IMG/VR virus record: IMGVR_UViG_3300042453_003256
Span: 1 to 30,687 of that record
Source of the DNA: a virus
Length of the DNA: 30,687 nucleotides
Reading direction: 5' to 3' (one strand)
Shown here: positions 1 to 14,479 of the stretch, piece after piece
How the letters are laid out: each line of letters opens with the position of its first letter
Numbering within the stretch: position 1 is the stretch's first letter
Made by a program: the position numbers and the translations under genes
Notes under the pieces: generated by a model
Seen by the model: the letters and a program-made list of their open reading frames with translations, nothing else
What the model was told of the DNA's origin: nothing
Databases searched by the model: none

Positions 1-77
1 GCCTCGACGCGCTGCTCGTCGGCCCTCGGGGCGGGCACCGCTCGCAGGTGCGGCTGACGCGGCGAGGGCTCGCTCAC
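1..77 (-). CDS. Partial late protein, N-terminus only
   Basis: An open frame starts with GTG at 77 and runs off the left edge without a stop (25 codons seen). The GTG overlaps the TGA of the preceding gene (74-76) in a GTGA junction, the same coupling used throughout this block. The residues seen are rich in Pro, Arg and Glu, and nothing identifies a family. I call it a gene because of the junction and the open frame; its function is unknown. Confidence 0.5.
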   Translation of the reverse strand, partial: MSEPSPRQPHLRAVPAPRADEQRVE

Positions 78-967
78 CGCCGGCTCCGCTTGCGCCGAGC
101 ACGGCCGATGCCCGCCGGGCCGCTGATCTCCAGGTTGTAGAAGCTCTTGCGCCCGTCCAGGTCGGGCGCTCGCTGCGGCAGCGCCGCGACGTTGCGAACG
201 GGCACCCGCCCAACGCCCAGGCGCTGCGCCCTGCGGTAGTAACGGAAGGCCGCAACGCCGACGATGGTCAGGAGCGTGCCGCCCACGCCGAGCATGATCC
301 AGGGCCAGGGGTCGAGCGTGCCGGGCTCGGGAGTCTCGGTGCCACTCTCACGCGGCGTCGGGACAGTCTCGGCGGCGGCTGCGCTGCACGCCTCGGGGTC
401 GCCTCCTCGGGCGAGGCACTCGTTGTAGGCCGCGAGCCGGCCCGTGGTCAGGTCGCGGAACTGCTGGGCCCGAGCGCGCGCGATGAAGACGCCGGAAAAC
501 TCCTGGCTGACGTTGATCACCACTTGGCCGAGGATGTAGGCCACGGCCACGGCGGCGATCAGGGCGATGATCGCCAGAGCGATGGTCGCGCCCGTCGTAA
601 GCTCGCCAAGCTGGCGGCGGCTTCGGACCTCGGGGCTCGGGATCGGGAAGGGGATCTGCGCGATCAGCGACGGGGCGATGGGCCGCAGGATGCGCGTGAC
701 GACGGCGTAGACCTCAAGCTGCGCTTTGTAGAGCGCCGTGCGGACCTTGTTGAAGGCGACGTAGTCCGCAGCCGTGTCCAGCCCCGCGCTCTGAAGCGCG
801 AGCAGCCCTTGGCGAGCCTCTTCGACCTCGTCCTCGCCCTTGGCAAGGGCCTCAAGCAGGTCGCGGAGCGTCGGCTCGACGAAGGTCCGGTCGATGTACT
901 CCTCGACGGGCGCGAACCTGCGCCGCGCCTCGCTGAGAGCGCGATCGAAGGTGCTGATCTCGCTCAC
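74..967 (-). CDS. Two-span membrane protein with coiled-coil-like N-domain and basic C-tail
   Basis: The 297-residue product starts at GTG 967, which overlaps the TGA of the upstream gene; upstream in-frame codons read as Arg-rich shadow sequence. Residues 1-100 are charged and helical (RDLLEALAKGEDEVEEARQG). A long membrane segment lies at about 127-150 and a second at 222-243. Between them is a roughly 70-residue loop with two cysteines and a Thr/Pro/Glu-rich stretch. The last 50 residues are strongly basic and end GIGRARRKRSRR. The basic tail after the second span would face the DNA side if the protein sits in a virion or host membrane. No family was recognised; a structural membrane protein is inferred from context. 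Confidence 0.75.
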   Translation of the reverse strand: MSEISTFDRALSEARRRFAPVEEYIDRTFVEPTLRDLLEALAKGEDEVEEARQGLLALQSAGLDTAADYVAFNKVRTALYKAQLEVYAVVTRILRPIAPSLIAQIPFPIPSPEVRSRRQLGELTTGATIALAIIALIAAVAVAYILGQVVINVSQEFSGVFIARARAQQFRDLTTGRLAAYNECLARGGDPEACSAAAAETVPTPRESGTETPEPGTLDPWPWIMLGVGGTLLTIVGVAAFRYYRRAQRLGVGRVPVRNVAALPQRAPDLDGRKSFYNLEISGPAGIGRARRKRSRR

Positions 968-1341
968 CGCCGCCCCCCCATCCCCGCTTGCTGCGCTTGC
1001 TGGACGAGCGCAGCGAGGCGCTCGTCGTGCCGGTACTCGACGATGACGCTGACCTCGGCGTAGCCGATGTTCGATGCGCCGAGCAGCCACTGATGCGGGA
1101 GCATTTCGAAGCGGATCTGCGCCCCGGGGCTCCACACCGGCAGCTTGTACTCACGGTTGGGGCCGATCTCCTCGGGCAGCGTGTCGAAGGTGATCGACAC
1201 CCGAGGGCTCTCGGGGATCATGACCTGCACGAGCCGGTAGCAGCCCGGGATCGCATCCTCGTCACGAGGAAGGAAGATCCGCGCCTCCTGCACCAGCGTG
1301 GCGCGGAAGGCGTGCGTGGGCTTGTAGATCGTCCCGTTCAT
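964..1341 (-). CDS. 125-aa beta-rich protein, possible single-domain virion protein
   Basis: ATG at 1341 follows the previous stop by 4 bases, with a GGTGA-like ribosome site over that stop. The product has no membrane segment and alternates hydrophobic and polar residues in strand-like runs (RLVQVMIPESPRVSITFDTL, YAEVSVIVEYRH). It ends in a short Gln/Ala helix and GMGGRR. Size and strand pattern would suit a single beta-sandwich (for example a minor capsid or spike protein), but this is only a fold guess. It sits between a small basic protein and a membrane protein in the late block. Confidence 0.75.
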   Translation of the reverse strand: MNGTIYKPTHAFRATLVQEARIFLPRDEDAIPGCYRLVQVMIPESPRVSITFDTLPEEIGPNREYKLPVWSPGAQIRFEMLPHQWLLGASNIGYAEVSVIVEYRHDERLAALVQQAQQAGMGGRR

Positions 1342-1345
1342 GGGT

Positions 1346-1630
1346 TCACCGCCGGAAGATTCCGCACGCCTTGGCGCGATCGAAGACCTGATCCCGACGC
1401 GCCGACGCCATCGCGAAGAGCTTGCGCCCGGTTGCCGAGCCACGGTCGGCCTCCGAAGCGTGCGCCATGATGGTGCCCACCGTGAAGAGCGCCTTGCCGA
1501 TCTCTCCGCACGTCATGCGATCGATCCGCGCACTCGTCACCGAGCGCAGCCGGTAGGTCGCATGTTCGAGGTGCTCGCTCGGCGTGCCACGGAGGCTGCG
1601 GCTGCGACGAGTCTTCTTCTTGGCTGCCAT
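1346..1630 (-). CDS. Small basic protein (94 aa), MAAKKK start
   Basis: ATG at 1630 has a strong ribosome site (GAGAGGAGC) 6 bases upstream. The product starts MAAKKKTRRSRSLRG, then has a helical body with two cysteines (MTCGEIGKALF and KACGIFRR) and a basic C-terminus. The AKKK opening resembles that of the 76-aa protein at 8108-8338. Nucleic-acid binding inside the virion or during assembly is plausible from charge alone. No family was recognised. Confidence 0.75.
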   Translation of the reverse strand: MAAKKKTRRSRSLRGTPSEHLEHATYRLRSVTSARIDRMTCGEIGKALFTVGTIMAHASEADRGSATGRKLFAMASARRDQVFDRAKACGIFRR

Positions 1631-1643
1631 GATCAGGCTCCTC

Positions 1644-2597
1644 TCAGGTCAGGCTGATGTAGCCGGTCAGGCCCACGGCGAGGTTGAGACCTTCGGCGGA
1701 CTGATCCAGAGCGATGCCCTGCACGACGATGCCCTCGCCGGGCTCCCAGATCAGCCCGTCGCCCGGGAACTGATGCACCACGGCCATGCCCTGGGTCGTG
1801 CCGAGCAGCGTGGCCGGCATCTGCGAGAGCGGCACGGGGCTGGTCGGGCCGATGTACCAGTCTGCGCCCGTTCCGTTGCCGATCTGACGGATCTGGACTC
1901 GAAGCTGGCGAATGTCGCCCGCGCCGACCGGGTCTTCGACCTCCGCGCCGCAGTGCAAGACCATATCGGTCAGGGCGATGGGCTCGGTGCCGTCGTTGCG
2001 GAAGTCCACGGTGTCGAGGATCACCGGGGCCTCGTTGCTCAGTTCGACCTCGCTCGCCAGGAAGTAGGGGCGCTTGCTCAGGAGGCCGACGCCGCTGAAG
2101 CTCACCGACACACGACGCGGCGAGGCGGGCTGACTCTCAAGGGCGACCTGCACTCGAAGCGAGTCGCGAGCCGAGAGGATCACGGGCCGGTCGAAGGTGT
2201 ACGACGAGAAGGCCGGCGTGAGCGCCTGCGGTCCGGTCACGACCTTGGTCGCCCACAGAGGCAGCGCCTTGAACTCGCGCCCCATGTAGTATTGATCGTG
2301 GAAGGTGAAGCGCACGCCCATGCGCTGCATCTGGCGCATATCCAGCCCGCCCTCGCCGTCAGGGCGCACGAAGAACGTCGCGTGCGTCAGGCGCACCGGG
2401 AACTGCTCGCCGTTGATAAAGGTGTTGCGGTCGCCGTTGCTCACCACGCCATCGGGCAAGAGCGTGAAGGCGTCGAAGTAGGCCCGAGGCTCCTCGATGA
2501 TGCCCTTGGCGACGTTCTGCGCCGCGAGCTTCACCATGTAGTCGATGTAGCGGTCGCCGGGCTTGCCCGTGGGCTGCTTGTGCTCTTCCATGCTCAT
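1644..2597 (-). CDS. Capsid-candidate protein, paralogue of the 371-aa neighbour
   Basis: The 317-aa product starts at ATG 2597, overlapping the upstream TGA (ATGA); a second ATG lies two codons in. It is predicted beta-rich and soluble. It shares ordered motifs with the 371-aa product of 2594-3709: EPRA near the N-terminus, F(I/L)NGE(Q/K)(F/Y)P(V/I)xLTxA, a YY-x-R pair, (Y/W)xFD(R/K)P before an alternating strand, an E-P-G or G-P-G-D turn near the C-terminus, and a final GY-x-S strand. The two are therefore an old tandem duplication. Length and strand content would suit a jelly-roll capsid or penton-type protein, but no diagnostic motif proves that. The pair lies just beyond the three other tandem paralogues, after a likely attenuator. 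Confidence 0.8.
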   Translation of the reverse strand: MSMEEHKQPTGKPGDRYIDYMVKLAAQNVAKGIIEEPRAYFDAFTLLPDGVVSNGDRNTFINGEQFPVRLTHATFFVRPDGEGGLDMRQMQRMGVRFTFHDQYYMGREFKALPLWATKVVTGPQALTPAFSSYTFDRPVILSARDSLRVQVALESQPASPRRVSVSFSGVGLLSKRPYFLASEVELSNEAPVILDTVDFRNDGTEPIALTDMVLHCGAEVEDPVGAGDIRQLRVQIRQIGNGTGADWYIGPTSPVPLSQMPATLLGTTQGMAVVHQFPGDGLIWEPGEGIVVQGIALDQSAEGLNLAVGLTGYISLT

Positions 2598-3709
2598 GCC
2601 TCGATGGATGCGTAGCCGCAGAGGCTGACGCCGATCTGGTACACGCTGTTGATCGGTTGTTCTTCGCCCGCGATCGTGACCGGTCCAGGGGCAGTGACCT
2701 CAAGGTCGAGCCGGTCGCCGGGGCCGAGCGTGATCGGCTCGGGCAGGTCGTAGACCTGCGCCGGGGTGACGCTCGGGCAGACCAGAGCCAGCGGCGCACC
2801 CTGCCGCCACCACCACGAGCCGGTGCCGCCGTTCCGCATCCGAGCCCGAGCCGCAACGCGCAGGCTCAACGGCGAGAGCACCGAGCCGGGGTTGGGGACC
2901 AGAGCCTCGTCGAGGTTGGAGTCGTAGACGCTCTGGTCGATCATGACCGAGAAGGCAGTGACCGGGATCGACCCGTCGCTGGAGGGGTTCTCGGCTGCGT
3001 ACCGCTTGGCGCTGAACCGCTGGGTGCTCGGCCACAGGTCGAGCACGGACTGGACGTAGTTGCTCGGGCCAAAGCCGTCCGCCGGGAAGGGAGGCGTGCC
3101 GCCGAGGGTGTTGTTGTAGCTCTTGAGGCTGATCGACTGGCTCTGTCGAGCGTTGCCGCCGAAGAGGTTGCCGCCCGCTTCCTCGAAGTGGATCAGAGCG
3201 CGCGGATTGATCGGCGGACCACCCGGCAGCCCCGGCGGGAGCGTGAAGGTCGAGAGGTCGAACTCCAGGTCGCCGAGCCTCGGGATGACCATGGGCTTGT
3301 CGAACTTCCAGCGGGTCAGCCCCCAGAGGCTCGAAGCGTAGTCGGGCGAGCCGAAGGCGCTACCGGGGTTGTTCGGCGTGTCGCTGGGCCGAGGCGTCGT
3401 GACCTGCGGGTGGCCCGGGTTCCGCAGGTAATACTGGCGCTGCGGGGCGCTGATAACGACGCGGGGGTTCTCGACGGCTGCCACGCCGCAGTTGCGGAAG
3501 TTGGCGGCGCTGAGAGGATCGCCGTTGCTGAAGCGCGAGAAGGTGTAGTTGATCGGCGCGATCAGGGCTTTGGTCAGCGTGATCGGGTACTTCTCGCCGT
3601 TGAGGAAGTCGTTGGCCGGCAGGCGCACCGTGAACGGAGGACGCGGCTGCGGCTGGCTCGTGTCCACCCGGGCCAGGGACCAGAACGCTCGCGGTTCGTA
3701 GAGCAGCAT
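2594..3709 (-). CDS. Capsid-candidate protein (371 aa), paralogue of the 317-aa neighbour
   Basis: ATG at 3709 is preceded by a weak AAGGTG ribosome-site candidate. The product starts MLLYEPRAFW and contains FLNGEKYPITLTKA at about residues 35-48, then long Pro/Gly/Asn-rich strand-and-loop sequence. Compared with the 317-aa paralogue it carries about 50 extra residues, including a loop of Pro, Asn and Gly around residues 105-125. There is no membrane segment or signal peptide. The gene is first after the hairpin at 3736-3772, so it is probably made at a lower level than the trio upstream. A structural role is inferred from context and from tandem duplication; the fold is unproven. Confidence 0.8.
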   Translation of the reverse strand: MLLYEPRAFWSLARVDTSQPQPRPPFTVRLPANDFLNGEKYPITLTKALIAPINYTFSRFSNGDPLSAANFRNCGVAAVENPRVVISAPQRQYYLRNPGHPQVTTPRPSDTPNNPGSAFGSPDYASSLWGLTRWKFDKPMVIPRLGDLEFDLSTFTLPPGLPGGPPINPRALIHFEEAGGNLFGGNARQSQSISLKSYNNTLGGTPPFPADGFGPSNYVQSVLDLWPSTQRFSAKRYAAENPSSDGSIPVTAFSVMIDQSVYDSNLDEALVPNPGSVLSPLSLRVAARARMRNGGTGSWWWRQGAPLALVCPSVTPAQVYDLPEPITLGPGDRLDLEVTAPGPVTIAGEEQPINSVYQIGVSLCGYASIEA

Positions 3710-3735
3710 CGGATCAGCACCTTAGCCGGAAACTA

Positions 3736-3772: not shown

Positions 3773-3798
3773 GGGGTGACGAGCGCCCGTGCGCCGGA

Positions 3799-4476
3799 TC
3801 AGGCGACCGGACGACGCTTGAGGCCGTCGAGGTGGAAGCGCATCCGCACGGCCTGCGACAGGTCGGAGATCGCACCCGGGAACGAACGCGCTTCGAGGTA
3901 GAAGACGCGGTCGGAGGCGATGTAGACCGGAAGCTGGAAGCGCCGCTGGTTGCTTGCGCTCATCTTGCCGCCCGTGCCGTAGCTGAAGGCCGTGGTGGCC
4001 GTCAGCGCCTGCGAGGAGGCGAAGGCCGGGCTGCCCACGCTCTGGCCGATGCGGCTGAACGGGAAGCGAGCCTGGGGCTTCTTGATGTTCGCGCCGACGA
4101 CGAGGCTGATCACGAGGTCACGCTGAAGCCGGCGAAGGTTCTGCGAGAGCAGGACCGGCGCAGGCGCGAGCGTGATGACCGGATCCTCGCCGACCGTCGC
4201 CGCCGAGAGCGCGAAGTGCTCGTAGGTGATGGCGTAGCAGAGGTACGCCTCGTCGTGGTTCATGCGGGTCTTGGCGACCTGATTCGTGTCGGCCTCGGTG
4301 GCCGTTCGCGCCAGAACGCCCTGCGTCGGAACCTGCTGGCCCTGGACGTAGGTGAAGGCGCGGAGGTTGACGGCCACACCAGCGGCGAACTCGATGGTCG
4401 AGAACTGCTGGTAGTGCAGCCACTCGTCGATCACCACTTCGGAGCCATCGGGGAGTCGGATCTGCTTGATTGCCAT
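3799..4476 (-). CDS. Tandem paralogue C (225 aa), candidate major virion protein
   Basis: ATG at 4476 follows a GGGAG ribosome site. This is the third-transcribed member of a three-gene family. Shared features run in order: IRLPDGSEV at the start, a short D/E-W, (Y/F)ST-x-E, F-x-Y-x2-G-x2-VP, a T-x2-DTN motif, Y-x-I, a basic LQRDL(V/I) helix, a long Gly/Ser/Thr-rich loop, a strand with P(V/L)Y(I/V), and the terminal block (L/F)xG-x3-RPVA. The last seven residues are KRRPVA-type in all three. The protein is beta-rich and lacks membrane segments. High copy is suggested by tandem triplication and strong ribosome sites. It may form hetero-oligomeric capsomers with its paralogues; no known family is claimed. 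Confidence 0.85.
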   Translation of the reverse strand: MAIKQIRLPDGSEVVIDEWLHYQQFSTIEFAAGVAVNLRAFTYVQGQQVPTQGVLARTATEADTNQVAKTRMNHDEAYLCYAITYEHFALSAATVGEDPVITLAPAPVLLSQNLRRLQRDLVISLVVGANIKKPQARFPFSRIGQSVGSPAFASSQALTATTAFSYGTGGKMSASNQRRFQLPVYIASDRVFYLEARSFPGAISDLSQAVRMRFHLDGLKRRPVA

Positions 4477-4497: not shown

Positions 4498-5190
4498 TCA
4501 CGCCACCGGACGACGACGGTAGCCCTCGAAGAAGAGGCGCAGCCGCATCCGCGAACCAGCGGTCAGGTTGAGGTTGTTGACCTGCCCGGGACCGGGCTTC
4601 ACGTCCACGGCCAGACCCTCGCCGCCCGCGACGTAGAGGGGGCTCGCCATCTGGCGCGAGTCACAGACGCTCACGCCGCCGTTGTTGCCGGCGACGTAGG
4701 GGTCGCCGGTCGCAGCGTTGATCGCGGCGCTGTTGTACTGCATGACGCCCGTGCCGGCGGCGAAGATCCCGAGCGGCTGCCGGGTGTACTCCTTGACCGC
4801 CGCGATGCGGGTGATCACGAGAATGTCGCGCTGAAGCCGGAGCATGTTCAGCAGGCTCACGTCGGGCGCGTCCGAGGGCGGCACGCTCGGGTCAAGCTGC
4901 GGATCCTCGGCTCCGATCATGAAGACCTCGATCGCCAGCGAGTAGGCGATCAGTTCCTCGTTCTCGGGGATGCGGTTGCCCTCACCCTCCAGGTTCGTGT
5001 CGGCGAAGGTGGACTGGCGCTGCGCCACCGAGCCCGGGACCGAAGCCCCGCGCCCGTAGGAGAAGGCCGTGAGGACGGGGAACGAACCCGTGCCGATCTC
5101 GACGGTCGAGTAGAGATCCTCGGCGCTAGTCCAGTCGCCGGGGGTGAGGGTCTTGCCGTTGGGCAGACGGATCTTCCAGAGTTGTGCCAT
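4498..5190 (-). CDS. Tandem paralogue B (230 aa), candidate major virion protein
   Basis: ATG at 5190 has a GAGAGGAGC ribosome site 8 bases upstream. The product opens MAQLWKIRLPNGKTL and keeps the family landmarks: W near residue 19, YSTVEIG, FSYGRGASVPG, FADTN, EELIAYSLAIE, LQRDILVITRI, PLYVAGGEGL and the end YRRRPVA. It differs from its neighbours mainly in the Gly/Asn/Ala-rich loop before PLYV. The three copies are well diverged, so the duplications are old and each copy is probably kept for a distinct position in the particle. A capsid role is inferred. Confidence 0.85.
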   Translation of the reverse strand: MAQLWKIRLPNGKTLTPGDWTSAEDLYSTVEIGTGSFPVLTAFSYGRGASVPGSVAQRQSTFADTNLEGEGNRIPENEELIAYSLAIEVFMIGAEDPQLDPSVPPSDAPDVSLLNMLRLQRDILVITRIAAVKEYTRQPLGIFAAGTGVMQYNSAAINAATGDPYVAGNNGGVSVCDSRQMASPLYVAGGEGLAVDVKPGPGQVNNLNLTAGSRMRLRLFFEGYRRRPVA

Positions 5191-5205: not shown

Positions 5206-5946
5206 TCAGGCCACCGGGCGCTTGTAGAGCCCGTCGAGGTGGAAGACGATCCGGTGCATGATGTTCGGATCCGACACCGCCGGGTTCGCCTCGGAGAGAC
5301 CGCTGGGAACCGCGCTGCCGCTCACGTTCTCCAGGCGCAGGCGGTACTTCTCCTGCCCGCCGATGTGGACCGGCACGACGAGGGAGCGCACCGCGTCCTG
5401 CGCCGGCCAGCCGGCGTTGGCTGCCGTGAGGCCGGGCTGACCCGCGACCGCCACCGCCCCGGTGAAGACCGTGGTCGAGGACGCGCCGAAGCCCGTGTTG
5501 TAGTAGCTCAGGCCGGCCCGGTGCGTGAACTTCTGGCTCACGTCGAGGCTGACGAGCAGCGAGGCGTGCAGGATCGAGAGCCGCTTGCGCGTGGGCGCGG
5601 GCTGGTTCGGAGCCGGCACGCTGAGAAGGGTCATGTTGCCCTCCTCGGTCGTGAACTCGTAGAAGTCGGGCTTGATCGCGTAGACGAGAAGCTCCTCGGT
5701 GCTCGCCATCCCGCCCGGGGTCACCACGTTGGTGTCCCGGTCGTTGCTCGTGCGGCGCACCGTGGCGTTGTTCGTCGTCGGGACGGGCTCGCCGCTGACG
5801 TACTGGAAGAGGTCGATCTCGGTGTCCGTGAAGTTCGCGAGAAGCTCACAGGTCGAGTAGAGCGGGGTGTCGCTCCAGTCCACGAAGGCGACCTCGGTGC
5901 CATCGGGCAGCCGCATGGTCGTGATCTGATTGATCGGGCCAGCCAT
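5206..5946 (-). CDS. Tandem paralogue A (246 aa), candidate major virion protein
   Basis: ATG at 5946 has an AAGGAG ribosome site. This is the longest and first-transcribed of the three paralogues. It has the same frame: MRLPDGTEVAFVDW, LYSTCEL, FQYVSGEPVP, DRDTNV, EELLVYAI, LHASLLVSLDV, PVHIGGQEKYRLRLE and the terminal LYKRPVA. It lies 23 bases after the 214-aa membrane protein gene. The order membrane protein, then three abundant-looking beta-rich proteins, resembles virion modules of membrane-containing viruses, but no member of a known capsid family is recognised by eye. Confidence 0.85.
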   Translation of the reverse strand: MAGPINQITTMRLPDGTEVAFVDWSDTPLYSTCELLANFTDTEIDLFQYVSGEPVPTTNNATVRRTSNDRDTNVVTPGGMASTEELLVYAIKPDFYEFTTEEGNMTLLSVPAPNQPAPTRKRLSILHASLLVSLDVSQKFTHRAGLSYYNTGFGASSTTVFTGAVAVAGQPGLTAANAGWPAQDAVRSLVVPVHIGGQEKYRLRLENVSGSAVPSGLSEANPAVSDPNIMHRIVFHLDGLYKRPVA

Positions 5947-5969: not shown

Positions 5970-6614
5970 TCAGGCGTTGAAGCCCGGGGTGCCGAAGGCT
6001 CCGGTGTTGATCCCCGAGAGGGACACGGTCTCACCGTAGCTGCCGATGGTGCCGGCGCGCTTCCCCGAGGGGCCGGTCGGCTCCATGACGATCGCGCCCA
6101 TGCCACGGCTGTACTCGGGCACGATCGCGCCCGTGCCGAGCCGGCGGCGGTAGCGGCGACCGATGCCGGCGGTGCCCTCAGCGGGCGGGGGCTCCACGGC
6201 CGCGCTCGACTCGATCAGCGAGGACAGGATGCGCGGGCCGTTCGGGCCCGTGACGAGCATGTCCTGGCCGTAGAGCGCGAGACCCACGCCGGTCGCCGCG
6301 ACGAAGGACGCGACCGCCGCCGGGGTGCCGCCGACCATGAGGAGGCCGAGCGAGGCGAGGATGCCCGCGCCGTGGCCCACGGCCCAGCCCCACTTGACGA
6401 GGCTGCGCTGGGTCGGACCCTGGTTCGGATCGATCATCGAACGGACGCTCAGGGCGACCGCAGCGGTCACGCCCGCGCCGACGAGGCCGGGGATGATCGC
6501 CTCACCCAGCGCGCCGCCGGGCAGCGCACCCATCCCGCGACGGATGCTGATGATCGAGCCCATCCCACGACGGCCCCGCTTCACGAAACGACCCTTGGAA
6601 TCACGCTTCGGCAT
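5970..6614 (-). CDS. Basic two-segment membrane protein with RGMG motifs (214 aa)
   Basis: ATG at 6614 has a strong AGAGGAG ribosome site. The N-terminus is very basic (MPKRDSKGRFVKRGRRGMGS). Two hydrophobic regions follow: about 40-58 and a longer one near 80-115, which could be one or two spans. The C-terminal 70 residues are Gly/Ser/Thr-rich and soluble. RGMG occurs three times (about residues 16-19, 27-30 and 169-172). The basic N-terminus should stay on the DNA or cytoplasmic side. The gene directly precedes the triple paralogues, which suits a protein linking membrane and shell. Its function is inferred from position only. Confidence 0.75.
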   Translation of the reverse strand: MPKRDSKGRFVKRGRRGMGSIISIRRGMGALPGGALGEAIIPGLVGAGVTAAVALSVRSMIDPNQGPTQRSLVKWGWAVGHGAGILASLGLLMVGGTPAAVASFVAATGVGLALYGQDMLVTGPNGPRILSSLIESSAAVEPPPAEGTAGIGRRYRRRLGTGAIVPEYSRGMGAIVMEPTGPSGKRAGTIGSYGETVSLSGINTGAFGTPGFNA

Positions 6615-7303: not shown

Positions 7304-8076
7304 CACGACCTCCGCTTGTTTTGACGGTAGACCCAGTAGGCGAGGCCACCGAAGGCGAGCGCCCCTGCGCCGATCACGAGGTACTGCCACGTCGGCGTGG
7401 TAGGCCGGTTCCCGACGAACGGCGCAAGCACGTCCTCGGGCACGTCGGTCGTCCCGCCTGCGGTGATAGACGCGCCTGCGCCCGCGCTCGCCGCGTCCGC
7501 AGCGTCAGCCAGCGCATCGGCAGAGCCGGTGCTGCGGATGACCTCGCGGGCCGGATCGTTGCCGGTGCGAATGACCTCGGGCTCGCCGACGCTCACGCCC
7601 GAGAGCACCTGCTGGGTCATGGCTTGAAGGGCTTGCGGAAGCTGACCCACGCCCTCGTCGATCAGCGCCTCGAAGTCCGAGAGCGTGTCGAGGTCGCGCG
7701 TCGGAAGCGCGCCCTGGACGAGGCGATCGAAGCGATTGTTGAACCAGCTTGCGATGCCGCCCGCAGTCGTGGGGAAGGCGTTTTCTTCAGACTCAGGGAA
7801 GCGCGCATCCCCGAGCGTAGCCAGCGTGAGGGCCTGCGTAGCTACGCGCACGTCCGCGCTCCACGCCCCGTTCACCGGCAGAGCCCTGGGGATCAGGGAC
7901 TCGTCAGCCGTGGCGAAGTAGGCCACGAGCGCCGACCTCGTCGAGGGCCACGACCGCTGGAAGAACGAGAGCGCGGAGGAGGCAGCCCCGAAGTCGCCCT
8001 CGCTCTGAGCGACGGCGTAGACCCAGAACACGCCAAACGAGGCGAGGATCTGACGACTCTGCGTTTCGGTGACCAT
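7303..8076 (-). CDS. C-tail-anchored membrane protein (257 aa)
   Basis: ATG at 8076 is preceded by CGGAGGAGTC, a good ribosome site. The N-terminal half is helical with aromatic residues (FGVFWVYAVAQSEGDFGAA). The centre (about 165-215) is Ala/Ser/Thr/Gly-rich and probably flexible. One membrane segment near 231-250 ends in YRQNKRRS. No enzyme motif was found. The long flexible stalk before the anchor would suit a protein that reaches from membrane to capsid shell, but that is inference. Confidence 0.75.
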   Translation of the reverse strand: MVTETQSRQILASFGVFWVYAVAQSEGDFGAASSALSFFQRSWPSTRSALVAYFATADESLIPRALPVNGAWSADVRVATQALTLATLGDARFPESEENAFPTTAGGIASWFNNRFDRLVQGALPTRDLDTLSDFEALIDEGVGQLPQALQAMTQQVLSGVSVGEPEVIRTGNDPAREVIRSTGSADALADAADAASAGAGASITAGGTTDVPEDVLAPFVGNRPTTPTWQYLVIGAGALAFGGLAYWVYRQNKRRS

Positions 8077-8107: not shown

Positions 8108-8338
8108 TCAGCGAGCCGGCTGGTTGTCCACGATGACGAGCCGACGCGCCGGCAGGGCCTTCGCCGCAGCCACGCCCCAGCAGAGCTTCCGCTTGTACTT
8201 CTTGCCGCCACGGGGGCCCTGCACGGTCACGACCTTGCACTCGCTGTTCGCGGGAGCCGCCTTCTTGGTGGCCTTCTTGGACGCCTTCTTGGAGGTCTTC
8301 TTCGCCGCCTTCTTCGCGGCCTTCTTCTTCGCTGCCAT
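8108..8338 (-). CDS. Histone-H1-like Lys/Ala-rich small protein (76 aa)
   Basis: ATG at 8338 has an AAGGAGAG ribosome site. Residues 1-28 are repeats of AAKK/SKKA type, as in bacterial H1-like DNA-binding tails. A compact part follows: ECKVVTVQGPRGGKKYKRKLC, two cysteines 19 residues apart. The 43-aa product of 12048-12179 has a matching C-x-(T/V)-x2-VQG...Y-x-x-C core, so the two belong to one family. DNA condensation or anchoring is the likely role, from composition. Confidence 0.75.
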   Translation of the reverse strand: MAAKKKAAKKAAKKTSKKASKKATKKAAPANSECKVVTVQGPRGGKKYKRKLCWGVAAAKALPARRLVIVDNQPAR

Positions 8339-8385: not shown

Positions 8386-8949
8386 TCACCGACGACGGAA
8401 GAGGAAGAACCCGACGCCGCCCACGAGCGCCGCCGCGCCCAGAGCCCAGAGCCAGCCCGAGCCGCTCGACGAGGCTGCGCGCTGGGACGCGGGCGGGGTG
8501 TAGAGCGTCACGCCGAAGTCGTCGCCCGAAGGCAGCGCGTCGTCCGTGGCGAGCACGCCCGGGTCGAGGGCTGCGTCGTGTACGTCCTCGACGGTGTCCG
8601 AAGCAGCATCGGTGCCCGTCGAGTCTGCGACCGCCGGGGTGTCGAACGAGCCGAAGACGACACCCGGGACCGTGTCGGGACCGTAGGGGCCATTCATGTT
8701 GGAGCCCGCAGGCGGATCGGCCTCGGCCTCGTCGATCGTCGTGATCGTGCCTGCCTTGAGGACCGTGAGCGGCGCAGGCCCCGGCTTGATCAGCGGCGCG
8801 ATCTTGGAGTAGGCCGTCGCACTCGCCGTGATCGGGCCGCTGACCGGCACCTGGGCCACAAGCTGATTGTCCGCCGGGACCACCGTGGCGTTGAGGTCGA
8901 ACGCGCCCCGAAGGCCGCGCATCCCATACCGCTGCGTCTTGTACATCAT
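8386..8949 (-). CDS. C-tail-anchored membrane protein (187 aa)
   Basis: ATG at 8949 overlaps the upstream TGA (ATGA). The N-terminal 60 residues contain strand-like segments (NQLVAQVPVSGPITASAT). The middle is acidic and Asp/Ala/Thr-rich. One membrane segment at about 166-184 is followed by FRRR and stop. The overlap couples it to the 155-aa gene upstream. No family was recognised; it is assigned to the tail-anchored group of this block. Confidence 0.75.
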   Translation of the reverse strand: MMYKTQRYGMRGLRGAFDLNATVVPADNQLVAQVPVSGPITASATAYSKIAPLIKPGPAPLTVLKAGTITTIDEAEADPPAGSNMNGPYGPDTVPGVVFGSFDTPAVADSTGTDAASDTVEDVHDAALDPGVLATDDALPSGDDFGVTLYTPPASQRAASSSGSGWLWALGAAALVGGVGFFLFRRR

Positions 8950-9413
8950 CGCCGCACCACCAAGTAGAGGAGCCCCAGAGCGAGCGCACCGCCCGCAGCG
9001 TACTTCGTCACCCGGCGTTGATACCAGGGCTTGCAGCCGTCGTGGTCGATGCCTCGCTGGTCCAAGGTCTCGACGAAGGCTTCGGTGTCGCTCGTGCAGT
9101 TTGCGAAGAGCACCTGCATCATGGTCGCCGTCAGCGTCATGCCCTGCGCTGCGAAGGCCGGCGCAGCGGCGTTCTCGACGAGGCACAAGCAGCGGTCCCT
9201 GACCTCTTGGGGCACTTCGACGGGCCCGGGGCCACCACCGACAGCGTCGGCGCGCGCCTGCTGCACGAGCGCCGCAGCACCCGGGTTCTGCGTCGTTGCG
9301 AGCGTGAGCGCGCGTGAAGCCCGAGCGGCTGCGGTCGAGGTGAAGGTTCCAGTCGGAGTCGCCATCGAAAAGGGCGCACCGATGCCATTCACAGTTCGGA
9401 CGGTTCGGTACAT
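8946..9413 (-). CDS. C-tail-anchored membrane protein with conserved-looking cysteines (155 aa)
   Basis: ATG at 9413 was chosen; a TTG at 9419, overlapping the upstream stop, would add two residues. The middle region has four cysteines (RCLCLVEN, FANC, DGCKPW) in a helical domain, which could form disulfides or bind metal. One membrane segment at about 137-153 ends LVVRR. The domain does not match a family I know. It lies between two other tail-anchored proteins. Confidence 0.7.
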   Translation of the reverse strand: MYRTVRTVNGIGAPFSMATPTGTFTSTAAARASRALTLATTQNPGAAALVQQARADAVGGGPGPVEVPQEVRDRCLCLVENAAAPAFAAQGMTLTATMMQVLFANCTSDTEAFVETLDQRGIDHDGCKPWYQRRVTKYAAGGALALGLLYLVVRR

Positions 9414-9415
9414 GA

Positions 9416-10999
9416 TCAACGACTCCTCAGAGCGATGCCGAGCGCAAGTGCCGCGCCTACGCCACCGAGCACCGGCAGCCAGGGGAAGGTTTGCTGCTGA
9501 CGGTTACGTTGCTCGGCTTCTCGGATCAGGTCGAGCCGGTCAGCCTCAAGCGCAGCGGCCTCGGCTTCGCGCCGCGCCTGCTCCTGTCGCTGCTGCTCGC
9601 TTAGAGCCCGCGTGAGACTGGCCTCTTCGTTGGCAAGGGTCAGATCGTCTTCGGCTTCCACGCCCGCACACGACGCGGGGTAGCTCCGCACGAAAAGCCT
9701 GCGCGGCGTGTCTTGCTCCTGCGGCGCTACGAGGAAGGTGTCGAGCAGGTTGAAGCCGATCTCAAGGATCATGCTCACGACCGCGCCAACGACCGGGTTG
9801 ACCGCCGCAGCAAGCGATCCGACGAGCCGCACCGGAGCGAGACCTGTGCGTACTGCGGCGCTCGTGACTGCATCTTGCAGCCGCTCGACCTTAGCATCGT
9901 CAATCGAGATCATTCCCTTGTTTTTCCAGTAGGGAACGTGATTGAAGACGTACCAGCCGATGCTCTTGAGGAGCATGGTCGGAAGATCAAGCTGCGCGTA
10001 GACCGCTGCCACTGCGATGTAGCGGTCAATCCACGCGCCGAGGTCAACGAAGAACGGACGCTCGTCGTTGCAGGTCGCAACCTTGACCGGCTGCCCGGTG
10101 CGCCAGCACTCGTCGAACACGTCGGCGTAGCTGCGAGACATACAGATCCGGCGCTGCCACGCAGGAATGTCCGCAGGGTTCTGGTCGATCACAAGCCCAG
10201 GCTGCGACCCAGGAAGCTGATCAAGTACGTTGAACCATGCAGGCGTAAGTTCTGCGCTCTGGTCAAGCGCAGTGAACCAGACGGGGGGCGCAGGATTGTC
10301 CCAGGAGTCAATGTCGGGAAGTACCATCCCGCGCTCCGCAGGGGAGAGCATATCCGCGATGCCTGTGGGGTAGCCGCCCTCGCTGTACCCAGCCTTCGGG
10401 TAAGGCTTGCCCTCGACGATGGTCTGCCCATCAGAACCCGTGCGGGTGAAGAGCGTGACCTGATCACCTCGACGCCACTCTTCGTACTCGGGATTGCCGA
10501 GCGGCGCGGTCTGAAAGTCGGTCGGGAAGCGGAACACCGGACGGATGTTCGTCGCGTCGAGAAGCAAGAGCAGGTTCCAGCGCATCGCTCGGAACCATCG
10601 AACAACGCGCACCCCGGGCGTCCCTCGCGGAGGACGAAGAGCCGCGAGCGCGGCGAGGTTGGTCTTGGCGCGGTCGAAGAGATCCTGCCACGTCAACGCA
10701 AGCGGCCCGAGCGCCGGGCAGCCGTCCGCAGGCTCGGGGATCCGATACCAGCGGTTGATCGACTTGCTGGTGAGCATCATGGGCGTAGCGCCCGCCATCC
10801 GCCGGGTGCGCTCGGCAAGGATCGCGTTCGTTTCCGCTTCGATGACGTTGAGCCGGCTTGAGAACACCGCCGCAGCTTGTGACTGCGCCGACACGACCGT
10901 CGTCGCGCTTTCCTTCGTAAGCGTGAAGGGCAAGAACCCACCGCTCGGCGTTGCGCCGACGCCGCGTTTCGCGATACGCCGCTGCGAGTAGTGGGGCAC
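9416..10999 (-). CDS. Large virion-type protein with C-terminal anchor (527 aa)
   Basis: This is the largest product of the late block. I chose GTG 10999 (start MPHYSQRR...), 10 bases after the upstream stop; ATG 11056 would overlap the upstream membrane-span codons by 47 bases. Residues about 90-330 form a Trp/Pro-rich globular domain (RWYRIPEPADG, VPYWKNKG). A long amphipathic to hydrophobic helix near 385-420 (LVGSLAAAVNPVVGAVVSMI) follows, then a Glu/Arg/Gln-rich coiled coil (about 455-500) and a C-terminal membrane segment ending ALRSR. It could be a vertex, spike or genome-delivery protein held in a membrane. No enzymatic motif was seen. Confidence 0.75.
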   Translation of the reverse strand: MPHYSQRRIAKRGVGATPSGGFLPFTLTKESATTVVSAQSQAAAVFSSRLNVIEAETNAILAERTRRMAGATPMMLTSKSINRWYRIPEPADGCPALGPLALTWQDLFDRAKTNLAALAALRPPRGTPGVRVVRWFRAMRWNLLLLLDATNIRPVFRFPTDFQTAPLGNPEYEEWRRGDQVTLFTRTGSDGQTIVEGKPYPKAGYSEGGYPTGIADMLSPAERGMVLPDIDSWDNPAPPVWFTALDQSAELTPAWFNVLDQLPGSQPGLVIDQNPADIPAWQRRICMSRSYADVFDECWRTGQPVKVATCNDERPFFVDLGAWIDRYIAVAAVYAQLDLPTMLLKSIGWYVFNHVPYWKNKGMISIDDAKVERLQDAVTSAAVRTGLAPVRLVGSLAAAVNPVVGAVVSMILEIGFNLLDTFLVAPQEQDTPRRLFVRSYPASCAGVEAEDDLTLANEEASLTRALSEQQRQEQARREAEAAALEADRLDLIREAEQRNRQQQTFPWLPVLGGVGAALALGIALRSR

Positions 11000-11009
11000 C
11001 CTGGAGCTT

Positions 11010-11561
11010 TCAGCGCCGAAGCAGGAGCACGGCCGCGAGCGCCGCGACTGCGACACCGCCCGCGATCAGCAGGGTCTGCTGGGACACGCCCTGCGAGGGC
11101 TGCGAGGTCGAAGCGGCCTCGCGCAAGCGCACGTCGAGGTCCGCAGCGCGAGCGTTGGCCGCATCGCGCTCCATTTCGGCCCGCGCCCGAGCGAGCACGT
11201 CGGCCACGCTCTCGGTAGGGGTCGCAGTGCCATCCGTCGCACCACGCGCCTCGGCCATGCAGGCAGCAGCCCAGGTGTTCGCGACAGCGTCCACGCCCGC
11301 GCCCGCAGCAGCCCAGCCACGGTCCCGGGTCTCACCCTCTCCGGCGAAGGCGCTGAAAATGTCACCTGCGCTGGAGGTGATCGTGCGCGCCGCGACCCAG
11401 CCCGGGTCGGTGCAGAGGTTCGGATCACCGCCGAGGCCGGCGATGCCCGTGCCAGCCAGCACACGGTTACGGGCCGCGTAGGTGCTCGCGAGCCCTTCAC
11501 GAGCGACGTAGGTCGAGCCGATGCCTCGGAAGTTGCCAGCGGGAAGCGCGGAAGCGTACAT
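11010..11561 (-). CDS. C-tail-anchored membrane protein (183 aa)
   Basis: ATG at 11561 follows an AGGTGA site. The N-terminus is Gly/Ala-rich with a FRGIGS motif. A charged helical region (VLARARAEMERDAANARAAD) precedes a Ser/Gln linker and one membrane segment at about 162-181, ending LLLRR. Three cysteines are present. It belongs to the tail-anchored group by layout. No family was recognised. Confidence 0.75.
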   Translation of the reverse strand: MYASALPAGNFRGIGSTYVAREGLASTYAARNRVLAGTGIAGLGGDPNLCTDPGWVAARTITSSAGDIFSAFAGEGETRDRGWAAAGAGVDAVANTWAAACMAEARGATDGTATPTESVADVLARARAEMERDAANARAADLDVRLREAASTSQPSQGVSQQTLLIAGGVAVAALAAVLLLRR

Positions 11562-11566
11562 GGGGA

Positions 11567-12037
11567 TCACCTGTTGCGGGTGCGGGTCAGGAAGAGGCCG
11601 AAGCCTCCGAGGAAGAGCGCGAGCGGGACGAGCGCCGCCCCCCAAGCCCACGGATTAGAAGCTCGCCAGAACGTAGCGGGCGCGATGCTGCTCGGAACCT
11701 CGGGAGCCAGCGTGCTGGTAGAGCGCGAACTGGAACTTGATCGAGTTGCGACGTACCGAGGCGCAGCCTCAAGGATCTTCTGCCGAATGTTGCCATCGGG
11801 CACGTCTGCGGATCGCTGATCAGCGGCAATCGTGATCGTCGCTGCTGTGATCCCCATGCTATCGGTGAGAGCATCGAACGCCGCAAGCGTGCGCTCTCCG
11901 ATGATCCCGTCGATGGGCCCTGGGTCGAAACCCAAAACCGAGAGCGCACGTTGGATTGTGTCACCCGAGATCGGAGGACACACAACAGTACCCGACCGCC
12001 ACTCGCAACCTTCGGGAACGTAAGTCGCGCTCGACAT
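11567..12037 (-). CDS. Peptidoglycan-binding-like domain with C-terminal anchor (156 aa)
   Basis: ATG at 12037 has a GAGAGGTAGG site. Residues about 26-62 match the PG_binding_1 pattern: IQRALSVLGFDPGPIDGIIG, then ERTLAAF. A Ser/Thr-rich linker (98-118) leads to a membrane segment at 131-150 and TRTRNR. No catalytic motif is seen, so it should bind rather than cut the wall. A wall-binding domain tied to a membrane would suit host entry or lysis by a membrane-containing virus. The domain assignment rests on the hydrophobic pattern and the G-x-G-x2-T turn; two cysteines (11 and 20) precede it. Confidence 0.75.
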   Translation of the reverse strand: MSSATYVPEGCEWRSGTVVCPPISGDTIQRALSVLGFDPGPIDGIIGERTLAAFDALTDSMGITAATITIAADQRSADVPDGNIRQKILEAAPRYVATRSSSSSRSTSTLAPEVPSSIAPATFWRASNPWAWGAALVPLALFLGGFGLFLTRTRNR

Positions 12038-12047
12038 GACCTACCTC

Positions 12048-12179
12048 TCAGCGGATCTTGCAGAGGTAGCGGGACTTGCCCTGCACCTTGATGGTGCGGC
12101 AGCCGGGCTTGAGCTTGCCGCCCTTGTGGGCGTCCGCGTAGCTCTTGAACCGGAACGGGGGTGCCTTGCGCTTCGCCAT
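12048..12179 (-). CDS. Tiny basic two-cysteine protein (43 aa)
   Basis: ATG at 12179 has a strong GAAGGAGAG site, and the frame closes at 12048 just before the next gene. The product begins MAKRKAPPFRFKSYADAHKG and has GCRTIKVQGKSRYLC near its end. The C-R-T-I-K-V-Q-G...Y-L-C core parallels the 76-aa protein. With 12 Lys/Arg in 43 residues it probably binds nucleic acid. It is short enough to be missed by length-filtered gene calling, but ribosome site, spacing and family likeness support it. Confidence 0.8.
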   Translation of the reverse strand: MAKRKAPPFRFKSYADAHKGGKLKPGCRTIKVQGKSRYLCKIR

Positions 12180-12196
12180 GATCTTCTCTCCTTCGT

Positions 12197-12541
12197 TCAC
12201 TTCTTGCGCCGCTTACGGGCGCGGCCGAGGGACGAGCCCGTGCGACAATGACCCGCGGGTGCCTTGGCGCGCGAGCCCTTCTTGGTGGCCGCGCATTGTG
12301 CGTCGTCCACGAGCGCCGAGAGCGCCGAGCCGTCGAAGCGTTCGCACGAGCGGTTGTTGCAGCGAAGATCGACGAGGTCACCGTTTCGCCGGTCGAACTG
12401 CGCCCACAGGGATCGGAGCGATCCGAGGCCCGACCCAGGCCAGCGACTGCGGAAGTCGCGGATCTCAGCCTCGCCGAGGCTGACCGAGTAGAGCGAGCCG
12501 TTGTCGTAGGTGCGGATCGCACCGAGGGTCTTGCGCTTCAC
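12197..12541 (-). CDS. Cys-containing protein with basic LGRARKRR tail (114 aa)
   Basis: GTG at 12541 overlaps the upstream TGA (GTGA). The N-terminal half is a small mixed domain (SLGEAEIRDFRSRWPG). The second half has four cysteines (LRCNNRSCERF, DDAQC, AGHC), a possible metal site. The end, SLGRARKRRKK, almost repeats the end of the 175-aa protein encoded just upstream. The tail may target both to the same partner, perhaps DNA. No family was recognised. Confidence 0.7.
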   Translation of the reverse strand: MKRKTLGAIRTYDNGSLYSVSLGEAEIRDFRSRWPGSGLGSLRSLWAQFDRRNGDLVDLRCNNRSCERFDGSALSALVDDAQCAATKKGSRAKAPAGHCRTGSSLGRARKRRKK

Positions 12542-13065
12542 TTCCGCCTCCGCTTGCGAGCGCGACCGAGGGCGGCGCTCATACGCCCGTTGAAGCCCGA
12601 GACTCCCGAGGCCCGCTTGCCGAAGCCCTGGGCGATGGCGACGGGCAGCGTGATGAACGGGAACCACGCGCCGAGGAAGTACCACGCGATGCCCCAGCCG
12701 ACGCTGTTGTTGCGCTTGTAGCCGTGGTAGGCCGAGAAGCCGCCGCAGACCATCGCGATGAGCGAGTAGGTCCACCACCAGCGCGAGTAGCCGCCGACGA
12801 TCACGGTCTGGCCGTTGGGGTCGGTGGTGACCTCGCCGTCCTGGCCGAGCCCGGCGAGCGGACGGGTCAGGACGCGGGCCACGCCGTTGTTGAGCAGGGT
12901 GTACATGCCGAGGCCTCCCAGGCCGTAGCTCGCGGCGATGTTGCCTGACGAGCAGCCGCAGTCGCTGATCCCCTTGTTCGTGACGCGCAAGAGGTTCTGG
13001 GGCTGCTGCGGCGTCGTGCGCGCCGGGTGCAGGTAGTTGAAGCGCAGGTCGAGGTCGTCGTTCAT
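12538..13065 (-). CDS. Membrane protein with SDCGC motif and basic tail (175 aa)
   Basis: ATG at 13065 overlaps the upstream TGA (ATGA). The N-terminal 80 residues are soluble, with SDCGCSSG near 35-42. Two hydrophobic segments lie at about 95-115 (SLIAMVCGGFSAYHGY) and 120-150 (WGIAWYFLGAWFPFITLPVA). The C-terminus is MSAALGRARKRRRK. Both termini are predicted on the same side. It probably belongs to the virion membrane set; the function is unknown. Confidence 0.75.
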   Translation of the reverse strand: MNDDLDLRFNYLHPARTTPQQPQNLLRVTNKGISDCGCSSGNIAASYGLGGLGMYTLLNNGVARVLTRPLAGLGQDGEVTTDPNGQTVIVGGYSRWWWTYSLIAMVCGGFSAYHGYKRNNSVGWGIAWYFLGAWFPFITLPVAIAQGFGKRASGVSGFNGRMSAALGRARKRRRK

Positions 13066-13682
13066 CGGCCCAGCACTCCCTTCCGCACGATGGCACGAGC
13101 GCGAGCCTGGACGGCTGCGGCCTCGGATAGCGCCCGCTGACACGCACCTTGACGCTGCGCTTCGGCGCGCTGCCCGGTCACGATCGCAGCGGTCTCGTAA
13201 GCCTCGGGCGGCGGCTCCGTGGGCCGACCCCACGCAGGCGCAGCGCGGGTCACGATCTGGGGCGGCGTCAAGTCTTCGGGAGGCTGCGGGAGGTACTCCG
13301 CACCCCGGCTCCGCGCCGCCGCTGCCATATCGTAGCTGACCGGGGGTGGCTTCACTCGCCGGCTCGTCGAGTACGGAACGGCGGAAGCCTTGAAGCCCTC
13401 TTCGATCAGTTCCGCCGAGCGCAGGTAGTTCTGGTGCTCGGGACGGTTGGCGTCGTCGGTGAGCAGGTCGCTCTTCCACTGCTGGAAGAGCACGCGCTGC
13501 GGGAGCATCGTCGGCGGCTCGTAGTCCTCGCCCTGGAGCATCCGTTGCTGGTACTCAGCGATGCCGGCCTGCGTGGCCGCAGGGTCGCGGGTCACGAGCG
13601 CCGTGCGAAGCAGCGAGATAGGCAGGCGCGAGATCGCAGCCGGCGGAACGAAGGCAGCACCCTTGGGTCGTCTGTTGAACAT
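13062..13682 (-). CDS. Soluble late protein of unknown function (206 aa)
   Basis: ATG at 13682 lies about 38 bases below the predicted start of the second promoter-like element, with GGGAG as possible ribosome site. The product is helical and Pro-rich (EPPTMLPQRVLFQQW, PPPEAYETAAIV), with no membrane segment. Many Gln, Arg and Ala residues lie toward the C-terminus, which is basic. It could be a scaffold or internal protein. Nothing recognisable was found in it. Confidence 0.7.
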   Translation of the reverse strand: MFNRRPKGAAFVPPAAISRLPISLLRTALVTRDPAATQAGIAEYQQRMLQGEDYEPPTMLPQRVLFQQWKSDLLTDDANRPEHQNYLRSAELIEEGFKASAVPYSTSRRVKPPPVSYDMAAAARSRGAEYLPQPPEDLTPPQIVTRAAPAWGRPTEPPPEAYETAAIVTGQRAEAQRQGACQRALSEAAAVQARARAIVRKGVLGR

Positions 13683-13725
13683 GCAGGGGTAGCTCCCGAG
13701 GTGCGCGAGCGTCGGACGCTGCCAA

Positions 13726-13758
13726 CCTCTTACCAGCTTCGATGGGAAAGTTTCACCC
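13726..13758 (-). promoter_or_regulatory. Repeated 33-bp bipartite element, copy 2 (promoter-like)
   Basis: Minus-strand GGGTGAAACTT, 8 variable bases, AAGCTGGTAAGAGG, as at 6623-6655. Read as a promoter: -35 TGAAAC (13750-13755), 17-bp spacer, extended -10 TGG-TAAGAG (13727-13732), transcription start near 13720, leader of about 38 bases to ATG 13682. The rest of the 200-base gap 13683-13882 holds only a 6-bp GC hairpin (13768-13782). Confidence 0.55.
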
Positions 13759-13882
13759 AGGTGTTGACCGGCCTACGGCCGGGTGATAGGGATGGCTCGC
13801 CAACAACGACAGCCGCAAGGTTGAAGGGTCGAGGGCGGGGCTGGAGCAATCCACCTCGCTCTTCGTCTTTCAAGCGGCCTGC

Positions 13883-14479
13883 TCAGAGCGTGTAGTCCAC
13901 GCAGTGCGTAGCGCCCTGGTACTCCCAGCCCGGCGTCGCGCCCTTGACCGTGGGGTCGAGCGCCACCCACCTCGTCGGTTTGTTCGCAGCCTTCGGGAAG
14001 CCCACCATGAGGTAGACGTGCTCCCAGGCTTGACCGTTCGTTGACACGATGCGGGCTCGCAGGTGCCGGAAGCCGAGCGCGCGGTGCAGGGCGGCGAGGA
14101 CGATGACCATATCGTCGCAGTCACCTCCACCCACGGCCAGGGTGTGCTTGAGCGTCGAGAACAGATCGTAGCCGTCTGGGTCGAGGACGTAGCGGACGTT
14201 CTGCACGAGGAAGTTCCAGAGCAGCGTGCTCTCGCACTCGTCGCTCTGCGGGGCGCACGCTTCGACCTGGGGCATGAAGTAGGGCTTGCCCCAGGCCGTG
14301 ACGATCAGCTTGTTGTCGCGCTCGTCGTCAGGTCTGCCTGACACGAGCTTCACCGCGAGGCGGCGGGTCTCGGGGTCGTCGAGGCTGCGCTGGATCTGCC
14401 GTTCGATCAGAGCGACGTGCTCGTCGAGGTTGTTCGTTTCCCAGTATGCGACCTCGCCGCGTGCTTCTCTGCGTGCCAT
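13883..14479 (-). CDS. Transglutaminase-like cysteine protease (198 aa)
   Basis: I start at ATG 14479 (MARREARGEV); ATG 14488 is three codons upstream, and longer readings run into the leader hairpin. The transglutaminase/papain-like triad is visible: C121 in GGGDCDDMVIV, H154 in WEHVYLMVG and D175 in VALDPTV. The protein has no signal peptide or membrane segment, so it should act in the cytoplasm or virion. Such domains occur in many phages, where they may process virion proteins, cut peptides or modify proteins; the substrate is unknown here. It is the first gene of the leftward late block, just behind its promoter and leader terminator. Confidence 0.85.
   Translation of the reverse strand: MARREARGEVAYWETNNLDEHVALIERQIQRSLDDPETRRLAVKLVSGRPDDERDNKLIVTAWGKPYFMPQVEACAPQSDECESTLLWNFLVQNVRYVLDPDGYDLFSTLKHTLAVGGGDCDDMVIVLAALHRALGFRHLRARIVSTNGQAWEHVYLMVGFPKAANKPTRWVALDPTVKGATPGWEYQGATHCVDYTL

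Follow-up and report, generated by a model that had tools for sequence, protein, structure and literature searches.

Closest described viruses and the locus

Salisaeta icosahedral phage 1 (SSIP-1) is a membrane-containing phage of ~44 kb with a T=49 shell and two major capsid proteins (MCPs), placed in the vertical single-barrel group (PMC4958249, PMC6356626, PMC6260650), and its genome 'hardly shares any similarity' with GenBank entries (PMC6356626). In sphaerolipoviruses, each large MCP consists of two barrels stacked on each other and each small MCP of one (PMC4958249, PMC5332951), and FtsK/HerA-type ATPases are typical of Varidnaviria and a hallmark of PRD1-type viruses (PMC8328091). Against this background we analysed a linear fragment of 30,687 bases, IMG/VR record IMGVR_UViG_3300042453_003256, which in its full length we call the window. 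Its minus strand holds 23 late genes packed into one block (74-14479); in most of them a Shine-Dalgarno-like motif is present and the neighbours overlap or nearly touch. Its plus strand holds a replication block from 14668 onward. The replication proteins are ordinary by family and the late-block proteins nearly without family matches, Transglut_core at 13883-14479 (3.5e-7) being the only one to pass the cut-off.

The window is most likely a fragment of a bacterial virus that is tailless and has a round jelly-roll shell over an internal membrane, a virion that we infer from its genes. It is a large-genome variant of the vertical single-jelly-roll (SJR), membrane-containing tailless phages, and very probably represents a distant lineage that works in the manner of SSIP-1 and has five capsid-type proteins, three small and two large. 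An earlier note on this DNA had likewise favoured a tailless, membrane-containing virus over a tailed phage, and the capsid models, the homology to SSIP-1 gp34 and the negative searches for tailed-phage genes described below all support that choice. Its description of the late block also held: 23 genes, at least ten of them for membrane proteins (10 of 23 have one or more hydrophobic segments, defined as a scanning window of 17 with a mean of at least 1.5), two tandem beta-rich paralogue sets, several tiny basic proteins (72, 76 and 43 aa), and, in family searches of the window's late proteins, no match to a terminase, portal, protease, tape-measure or tail family. This arrangement is not a matter of chance, because the core genes recur in the same order in five other contigs, which together with the window make up the six contigs of the lineage.

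Capsid-type proteins

Five late genes encode the capsid candidates, all on the minus strand:

5206..5946, minus: 246-aa predicted single-jelly-roll capsid-type protein, trio paralogue 1 (paralogy; six of six contigs)
4498..5190, minus: 230-aa predicted single-jelly-roll capsid-type protein, trio paralogue 2, the modelled member (model and PDB matches)
3799..4476, minus: 225-aa predicted single-jelly-roll capsid-type protein, trio paralogue 3 (paralogy; six of six contigs)
2594..3709, minus: 371-aa paralogue of the 317-aa protein (paralogy; six of six contigs)
1644..2597, minus: 317-aa two-barrel candidate large capsid protein (AlphaFold model, Foldseek and VIA; six of six contigs)

The members of the 225/230/246-aa trio lie in tandem and are paralogous, with 31-32% identity to the first, and we predict with moderate confidence that they are SJR capsid subunits. 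The AlphaFold model of the 230-aa protein (pLDDT 64.6, pTM 0.67) has the one-barrel vertical SJR capsid fold as its predicted fold, and its top four matches in VIA are the capsid proteins of Sulfolobus polyhedral virus 1 (SPV1; Z 8.2, 3.5 Å, 138 residues), HHIV-2 (7.0), SH1 (6.8) and HCIV-1 (6.6), with P23-77 VP17 at rank 7 (Z 6.4) and the PRD1-type capsids (PRD1, PR772 P3) lower. Foldseek also returned SPV1 as the top PDB chain (prob 1.00). The comparison with jelly-roll capsids that the earlier note had suggested thus favours a capsid role for the trio, the best matches being vertical SJR capsid proteins of membrane-containing or related viruses. In BFVD, the sole match to the same model below 1e-3 was I1ZBH9 (211 aa), which by accession order and its 211-residue length is probably SSIP-1 gp46, gp35 also having 211 residues; a literature search returned nothing on the identity of I1ZBH9. 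Profiles of the trio and of the 317/371-aa pair gave nothing credible against PDB sequences.

For the 317/371-aa proteins, tandem paralogues with 23% identity, a role as two-barrel large capsid subunits is a weaker prediction. Modelling of the 317-aa protein (AlphaFold, pLDDT 56.6) yielded two beta-barrels, one (residues ~116-243) nested within the other (23-115 plus 244-317), and Foldseek and VIA matched them to jelly-roll capsids (picornavirus, birnavirus) and nucleoplasmin-like barrels at Z 6-8. Here the same structural check was answered in part, a loose jelly-roll match being obtained from a low-confidence model. Birnavirus VP2, the top Foldseek match, was rejected as a relative at TM-scores near 0.2, and we read it only as 'jelly-roll capsid-like'; no capsid of Halopanivirales, PRD1 or other double-jelly-roll (DJR) viruses was among the matches listed (50 VIA rows). 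Compared with profiles of the SSIP-1 MCPs (gp45/gp46), the 317/371 family reached 45% over 31 columns only. Three one-barrel and two two-barrel proteins, if so built, would fit the sphaerolipovirus scheme with more paralogues.

A transglutaminase-fold protein shared with SSIP-1

One late gene provides the link by sequence to a described virus:

13883..14479, minus: 198-aa transglutaminase/protease-fold protein with conserved Cys-His-Asp, homologue of SSIP-1 gp34 (PF01841 3.5e-7; tblastn; hhalign; triad alignment)

Searched by tblastn against 50,697 phage records, this transglutaminase (TG)-fold protein matched only SSIP-1 gp34 (E 2e-8), and hhalign gave the same pairing 97.6% probability (E 4e-12). 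The TG homologues of four relatives (G007, G003, G401 and G402) match gp34 too, and Cys, His and Asp are conserved throughout, including in gp34, which is annotated as structural in SSIP-1. The earlier note had turned to PRD1, PM2 and P23-77 for comparison; on the TG-fold match, the closest described relative is instead SSIP-1.

Beyond this homologue, SSIP-1 (unclassified, 43.8 kb circular dsDNA, T=49, internal membrane) resembles the window in lacking any terminase that could be found and in a late block rich in C-tail-anchored membrane proteins (10 of 25 late versus 3 of 32 early proteins). In the window, a hydrophobic segment lies at the extreme C-terminus, mostly with a basic tail, in 7 of 23 late genes versus none of 19 early ones. 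The SSIP-1 order gp44 - gp45/46 - gp47 - gp48 parallels the window's membrane protein, SJR tandem, large beta-rich proteins and small beta-rich protein, and the 214-aa membrane protein sits in the same relative place as gp44 without sequence similarity to it; because such similarity is lacking, the likeness in gene order is positional resemblance only. The two also differ: SSIP-1 has two tandem capsid paralogues (gp45, gp46) and the window three of SJR type plus the two predicted two-barrel proteins, the window's replication module has no detectable counterpart in SSIP-1, and the genomes of its relatives are about twice as large. Separately, a 268-aa methyltransferase-like protein of G401 (24562-25368; L035:4562-5368) aligns over 194 residues, at 37% identity, with part of the 2319-aa SSIP-1 structural protein gp43 (residues 748-931).

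The Halopanivirales (Sphaerolipoviridae SH1/HHIV-2/HCIV-1, Simuloviridae, Matsushitaviridae P23-77/IN93) resemble the window in their many membrane proteins, in vertical SJR subunits, which are predicted for the window, and perhaps in combining one-barrel with two-barrel capsid-type proteins. They differ in having no sequence similarity to it, smaller genomes (16-19 kb in Simuloviridae, about 30 kb in Sphaerolipoviridae), no comparable PolA-based replication, and an FtsK/HerA-type packaging ATPase. Because that ATPase was searched for and not found in the window's lineage, the lineage should not be filed under Halopanivirales. Portogloboviridae supply the best structural match of the 230-aa model in the SPV1 capsid protein; SPV1 is archaeal, and no similarity to the window was found in sequence or gene content.

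A lineage of six contigs

A scan with the trio alignment recovered G007 (37,943 bp), syntenic with the window across late and replication blocks, and a second scan with six rows recovered four more contigs: G400 (63.9 kb), G401 (87.3 kb), G003 (80.6 kb) and G402 (86.8 kb). Synteny spans both blocks in G007, G003, G401 and G402, and in part in G400. Because they bear direct terminal repeats (exact over 127 bases in G003 and 123 in G402, 200 bases with one mismatch in G401), G003, G401 and G402 look complete, and at 80.6-87.3 kb they imply that the window is roughly a third of one genome rather than a whole one. In the open-licence literature searched, the largest described virus of the kind has 44 kb, about half the size of these 80-87 kb relatives.

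All six contigs share the trio, the 317/371 pair, the 124-aa and 613-aa proteins, the SNF2 helicase, the exonuclease, the Sak4-like ATPase and the uracil-DNA glycosylase (UDG)-PolA fusion. The TG-fold gene and the DUF3987 ATPase occur in five of six, the former missing from G400, which is incomplete. The tree built for the trio places the 225-aa and 230-aa sequences in two clades (supports 0.987 and 0.998), each virus contributing a single copy to either, and sets the 246-aa sequences apart from both (0.995). The triplication thus predates the lineage, and all three copies were retained.

Late-block relatives were recovered by alignment-based scans only. No relatives came from single-sequence scans of viral contigs with the 317-aa, 537-aa and DUF3987 proteins, and the 317-aa and 246-aa proteins had no tblastn match among the phage records searched above. 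We found no description of the lineage in the open-licence literature. A 4.3 kb contig in a Phycisphaerae metagenome-assembled genome (L015, JANQGB010001443.1) carries the 214/246/230-aa genes and may point to the host, or it may be a virus contig binned in error; 392 genomes from the same phylum yielded no further relative. Integrase-family proteins are among the families listed for G003, G400, G401 and G402, so the lineage may be temperate.

Packaging genes and alternative readings

In the lineage members tested, the three apparently complete genomes among them, searches at the thresholds used gave no hit for large terminase (phrog_2, PF03354), portal (PF04860) or HK97 capsid (PF05065); the same searches recovered TerL (phrog_2, 2.3e-24) and portal (5.2e-61) in a tailed control contig, G006. 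The earlier note had held that a large terminase, portal and tail genes on the same contig, or capsid candidates with an HK97 fold or no capsid-like fold, would overturn its view; no large terminase, portal or HK97 capsid came to light in the members tested, and the capsid candidates model as jelly rolls. It had also suggested looking for an FtsK/HerA-type ATPase versus a large terminase; neither was found. The sole sub-threshold PF01580 match was a 20-residue P-loop in a G400 protein whose G401 orthologue is a RecD-like helicase, and gp40 (phrog_6891), the predicted packaging ATPase of SSIP-1 (PMC4124505), had no blastp or hhalign counterpart beyond P-loop background. P-loop proteins found throughout the lineage are the Sak4-like ATPase, the DUF3987 ATPase and the SNF2 helicase, and of this conserved set the DUF3987 ATPase, whose gene adjoins the late block, and the Sak4-like ATPase are the best candidates for a packaging motor.

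Several observations weigh against a tailless virion of the SSIP-1 kind. The virus is known here from its genes alone. FtsK/HerA (PF01580) gave nothing above cut-off in the window, G007, G003, G400, G401 and G402, and the named-family searches, which carry the weight on the tailed-phage question, directly exclude only the families named. The capsid models have low to moderate confidence (pLDDT 64.6 and 56.6) and shallow alignments, their Z 6-8 matches might reflect a common arrangement, and the profile comparison of the trio with SSIP-1 gp45/gp46 was null. An all-against-all hhalign comparison of 22 window families with the SSIP-1 proteins left only the TG-gp34 pair significant, and TG-fold domains are widespread in cells too. 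The ten late membrane proteins are only consistent with an icosahedral virion with an internal lipid membrane.

A more far-reaching claim, which we advance tentatively as possible rather than probable, is that of a family- or order-level lineage of tailless membrane phages with 80-87 kb genomes, whose shell would combine three one-barrel with two two-barrel proteins, five capsid-type proteins in all. Packaging would then be driven by something other than a terminase or an FtsK/HerA ATPase, a task that might fall to the DUF3987 or the Sak4-like ATPase.

A tailed phage (Caudoviricetes) is in our view an improbable source of the window; its terminase, portal and HK97 capsid genes would have to be too divergent for recognition or lie off the fragment, the beta-rich proteins then serving as decoration, fibre or tail. 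Many records of tailed phages do contain relatives of SNF2, Sak4 and PolA. No head or tail family appears among the families listed for G003, G400, G401 and G402 (integrases, methyltransferases, helicases and nucleotide enzymes), a statement that covers the best 25 of 70-87 PHROGs families and of 38-39 Pfam families per relative. This reading is opposed by three terminally repeated 80-87 kb relatives without TerL, portal or HK97 capsid where the tailed control was positive for TerL and portal, by the fit of the trio to vertical SJR capsid proteins, and by two features that do not suit a tailed phage, a structural block with ten membrane proteins and the homology to an SSIP-1 structural protein.

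We give similarly little credence to a DJR tailless membrane phage of PRD1/PM2 type, with the 317/371-aa proteins as MCPs and the trio as accessory. The two beta-barrels of the 317-aa model and the presence of PRD1 and PR772 P3 lower in the 230-aa VIA list speak for it; however, the barrels are nested and best matched by picornavirus, birnavirus and nucleoplasmin barrels rather than PRD1-type capsids, the trio matches the SJR proteins of HHIV-2, SH1, HCIV-1 and SPV1 ahead of PRD1, and the FtsK/HerA ATPase, the PRD1-type hallmark (PMC8328091), was not found. An element of plasmid or satellite type, with clustered genes for secreted or membrane proteins and no virion of its own, to which the unrecognised packaging ATPase and the relatives' integrase-family proteins might point, is hardly credible given the jelly-roll capsid-like trio, the TG homologue of a virion protein, candidate spike genes and a full replication module; the origin of all six contigs in IMG/VR, which reflects selection, adds weak support for a virus.

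A model of the virion and what it implies

For an SSIP-1-like tailless virus, the capsid-type proteins would build the jelly-roll shell, a step for which support is moderate, and about ten membrane proteins, seven of them anchored by a C-terminal helix, would coat an internal vesicle beneath it. The tiny basic proteins may lie beneath the shell or condense DNA, and entry at the cell wall may be aided by the peptidoglycan-binding-like protein with its membrane anchor (11567-12037). The Cys-His-Asp TG-fold protein probably belongs to the virion and serves maturation, crosslinking or entry. Copying of the genome would fall to the plus-strand module (UDG-PolA, SNF2, Sak4 recombinase, exonuclease and single-strand-binding protein).

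These results link SSIP-1, hitherto without close GenBank relatives, to a lineage from metagenomes that has at least six members, and suggest that single-jelly-roll membrane phages attain tailed-phage genome sizes with a tailed-phage-like replication module. The sequences allow tests of how many capsid proteins build a shell and of whether single-barrel capsids gave rise to double-barrel ones, and they bear on how 80 kb is packaged in a tailless phage without a recognisable terminase or FtsK-type motor. They also furnish profiles with which to search for a group that would be overlooked when viruses are annotated by terminase and tail genes.

Other late-block genes

The remaining late genes, all on the minus strand, are as follows:

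74..970, minus: ~298 aa, two hydrophobic segments, candidate membrane-associated virion protein (transmembrane scan; positional counterpart G007 35324-35911)
964..1338, minus: small beta-rich protein of 124 aa, following directly on the large capsid-type pair (six of six contigs)
1346..1630, minus: 94-aa small basic protein (ribosome-binding site and composition)
5970..6614, minus: 214-aa membrane protein immediately upstream of the trio (transmembrane scan; conserved in five contigs)
6669..6887, minus: 72-aa very basic protein, 17 K/R and 2 D/E (composition)
6884..7303, minus: 139-aa C-tail-anchored membrane protein (hydrophobic-segment scan)
7303..8076, minus: 257-aa C-tail-anchored membrane protein (same scan)
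8108..8338, minus: 76-aa very basic protein, 24 K/R and 2 D/E, Lys/Ala-rich N-terminus (composition)
8386..8952, minus: 188-aa C-tail-anchored membrane protein (same scan)
8946..9413, minus: 155-aa C-tail-anchored membrane protein (same scan)
9416..11029, minus: 537-aa membrane protein, hydrophobic segments at ~400 and the C-terminus (same scan)
11010..11570, minus: 186-aa C-tail-anchored membrane protein (same scan)
11567..12037, minus: 156 aa, peptidoglycan-binding-like domain and C-terminal membrane anchor, candidate wall-binding entry protein (PF01471, PG_binding, E 0.002, below cut-off)
12048..12179, minus: 43-aa basic protein, 14 K/R and 1 D/E (composition)
12197..12541, minus: 114-aa basic protein (composition)
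12538..13065, minus: 175 aa, one hydrophobic segment and a basic tail (same scan; comparison across contigs)
13062..13682, minus: 206-aa protein, N-terminal part matching G007 (comparison with G007)

Late proteins of three relatives (G007:37510-37943, G003:79071-79982, and G401:47608-49017 and 49018-50046) begin with an AIGxVVP-type N-terminus followed by variable sequence; they are possible spikes or receptor-binding proteins with a common anchor, encoded beyond the window.

Replication block

Eight plus-strand genes were assigned:

14668..16029, plus: DUF3987-type P-loop ATPase (helicase/primase family), adjoining the late block (PF13148 3.6e-11; five of six contigs)
18454..20295, plus: 613-aa coiled-coil, Pro/Gln-rich protein (six of six contigs)
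20867..22600, plus: SNF2-family helicase (PF00176 2.8e-23; phrog_62 2.6e-70)
22931..23851, plus: PD-(D/E)XK exonuclease (PF12705 2.3e-12; phrog_1218 1.5e-25)
23876..24634, plus: Sak4-like RecA-fold ATPase (phrog_124 7.8e-31; six of six contigs)
24674..25225, plus: DUF669 single-strand-binding-type protein (PF05037 4.6e-9; phrog_378 2.7e-13)
25811..26452, plus: Dam-type DNA adenine methyltransferase (PF05869 3.4e-11)
26556..29420, plus: 954-aa UDG / 3'-5' exonuclease / DNA polymerase A fusion (PF03167 4.2e-20; PF00476 1.3e-59; six of six contigs)

The earlier note had thought that a SNF2/PolA module joined to such a virion block would mark an unusual lineage; the joining is real, and with the module present in six of six contigs it is a stable part of the lineage. 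The UDG-PolA fusion is split into two genes in G402, and SSIP-1 gp33, just before gp34, has a make-up like that of the 613-aa protein without significant sequence similarity. Two viral contigs of ~10 kb (L002 and L003) carry the same replication module, their UDG-PolA showing 88-89% identity; other contigs thus hold close relatives of the window virus.

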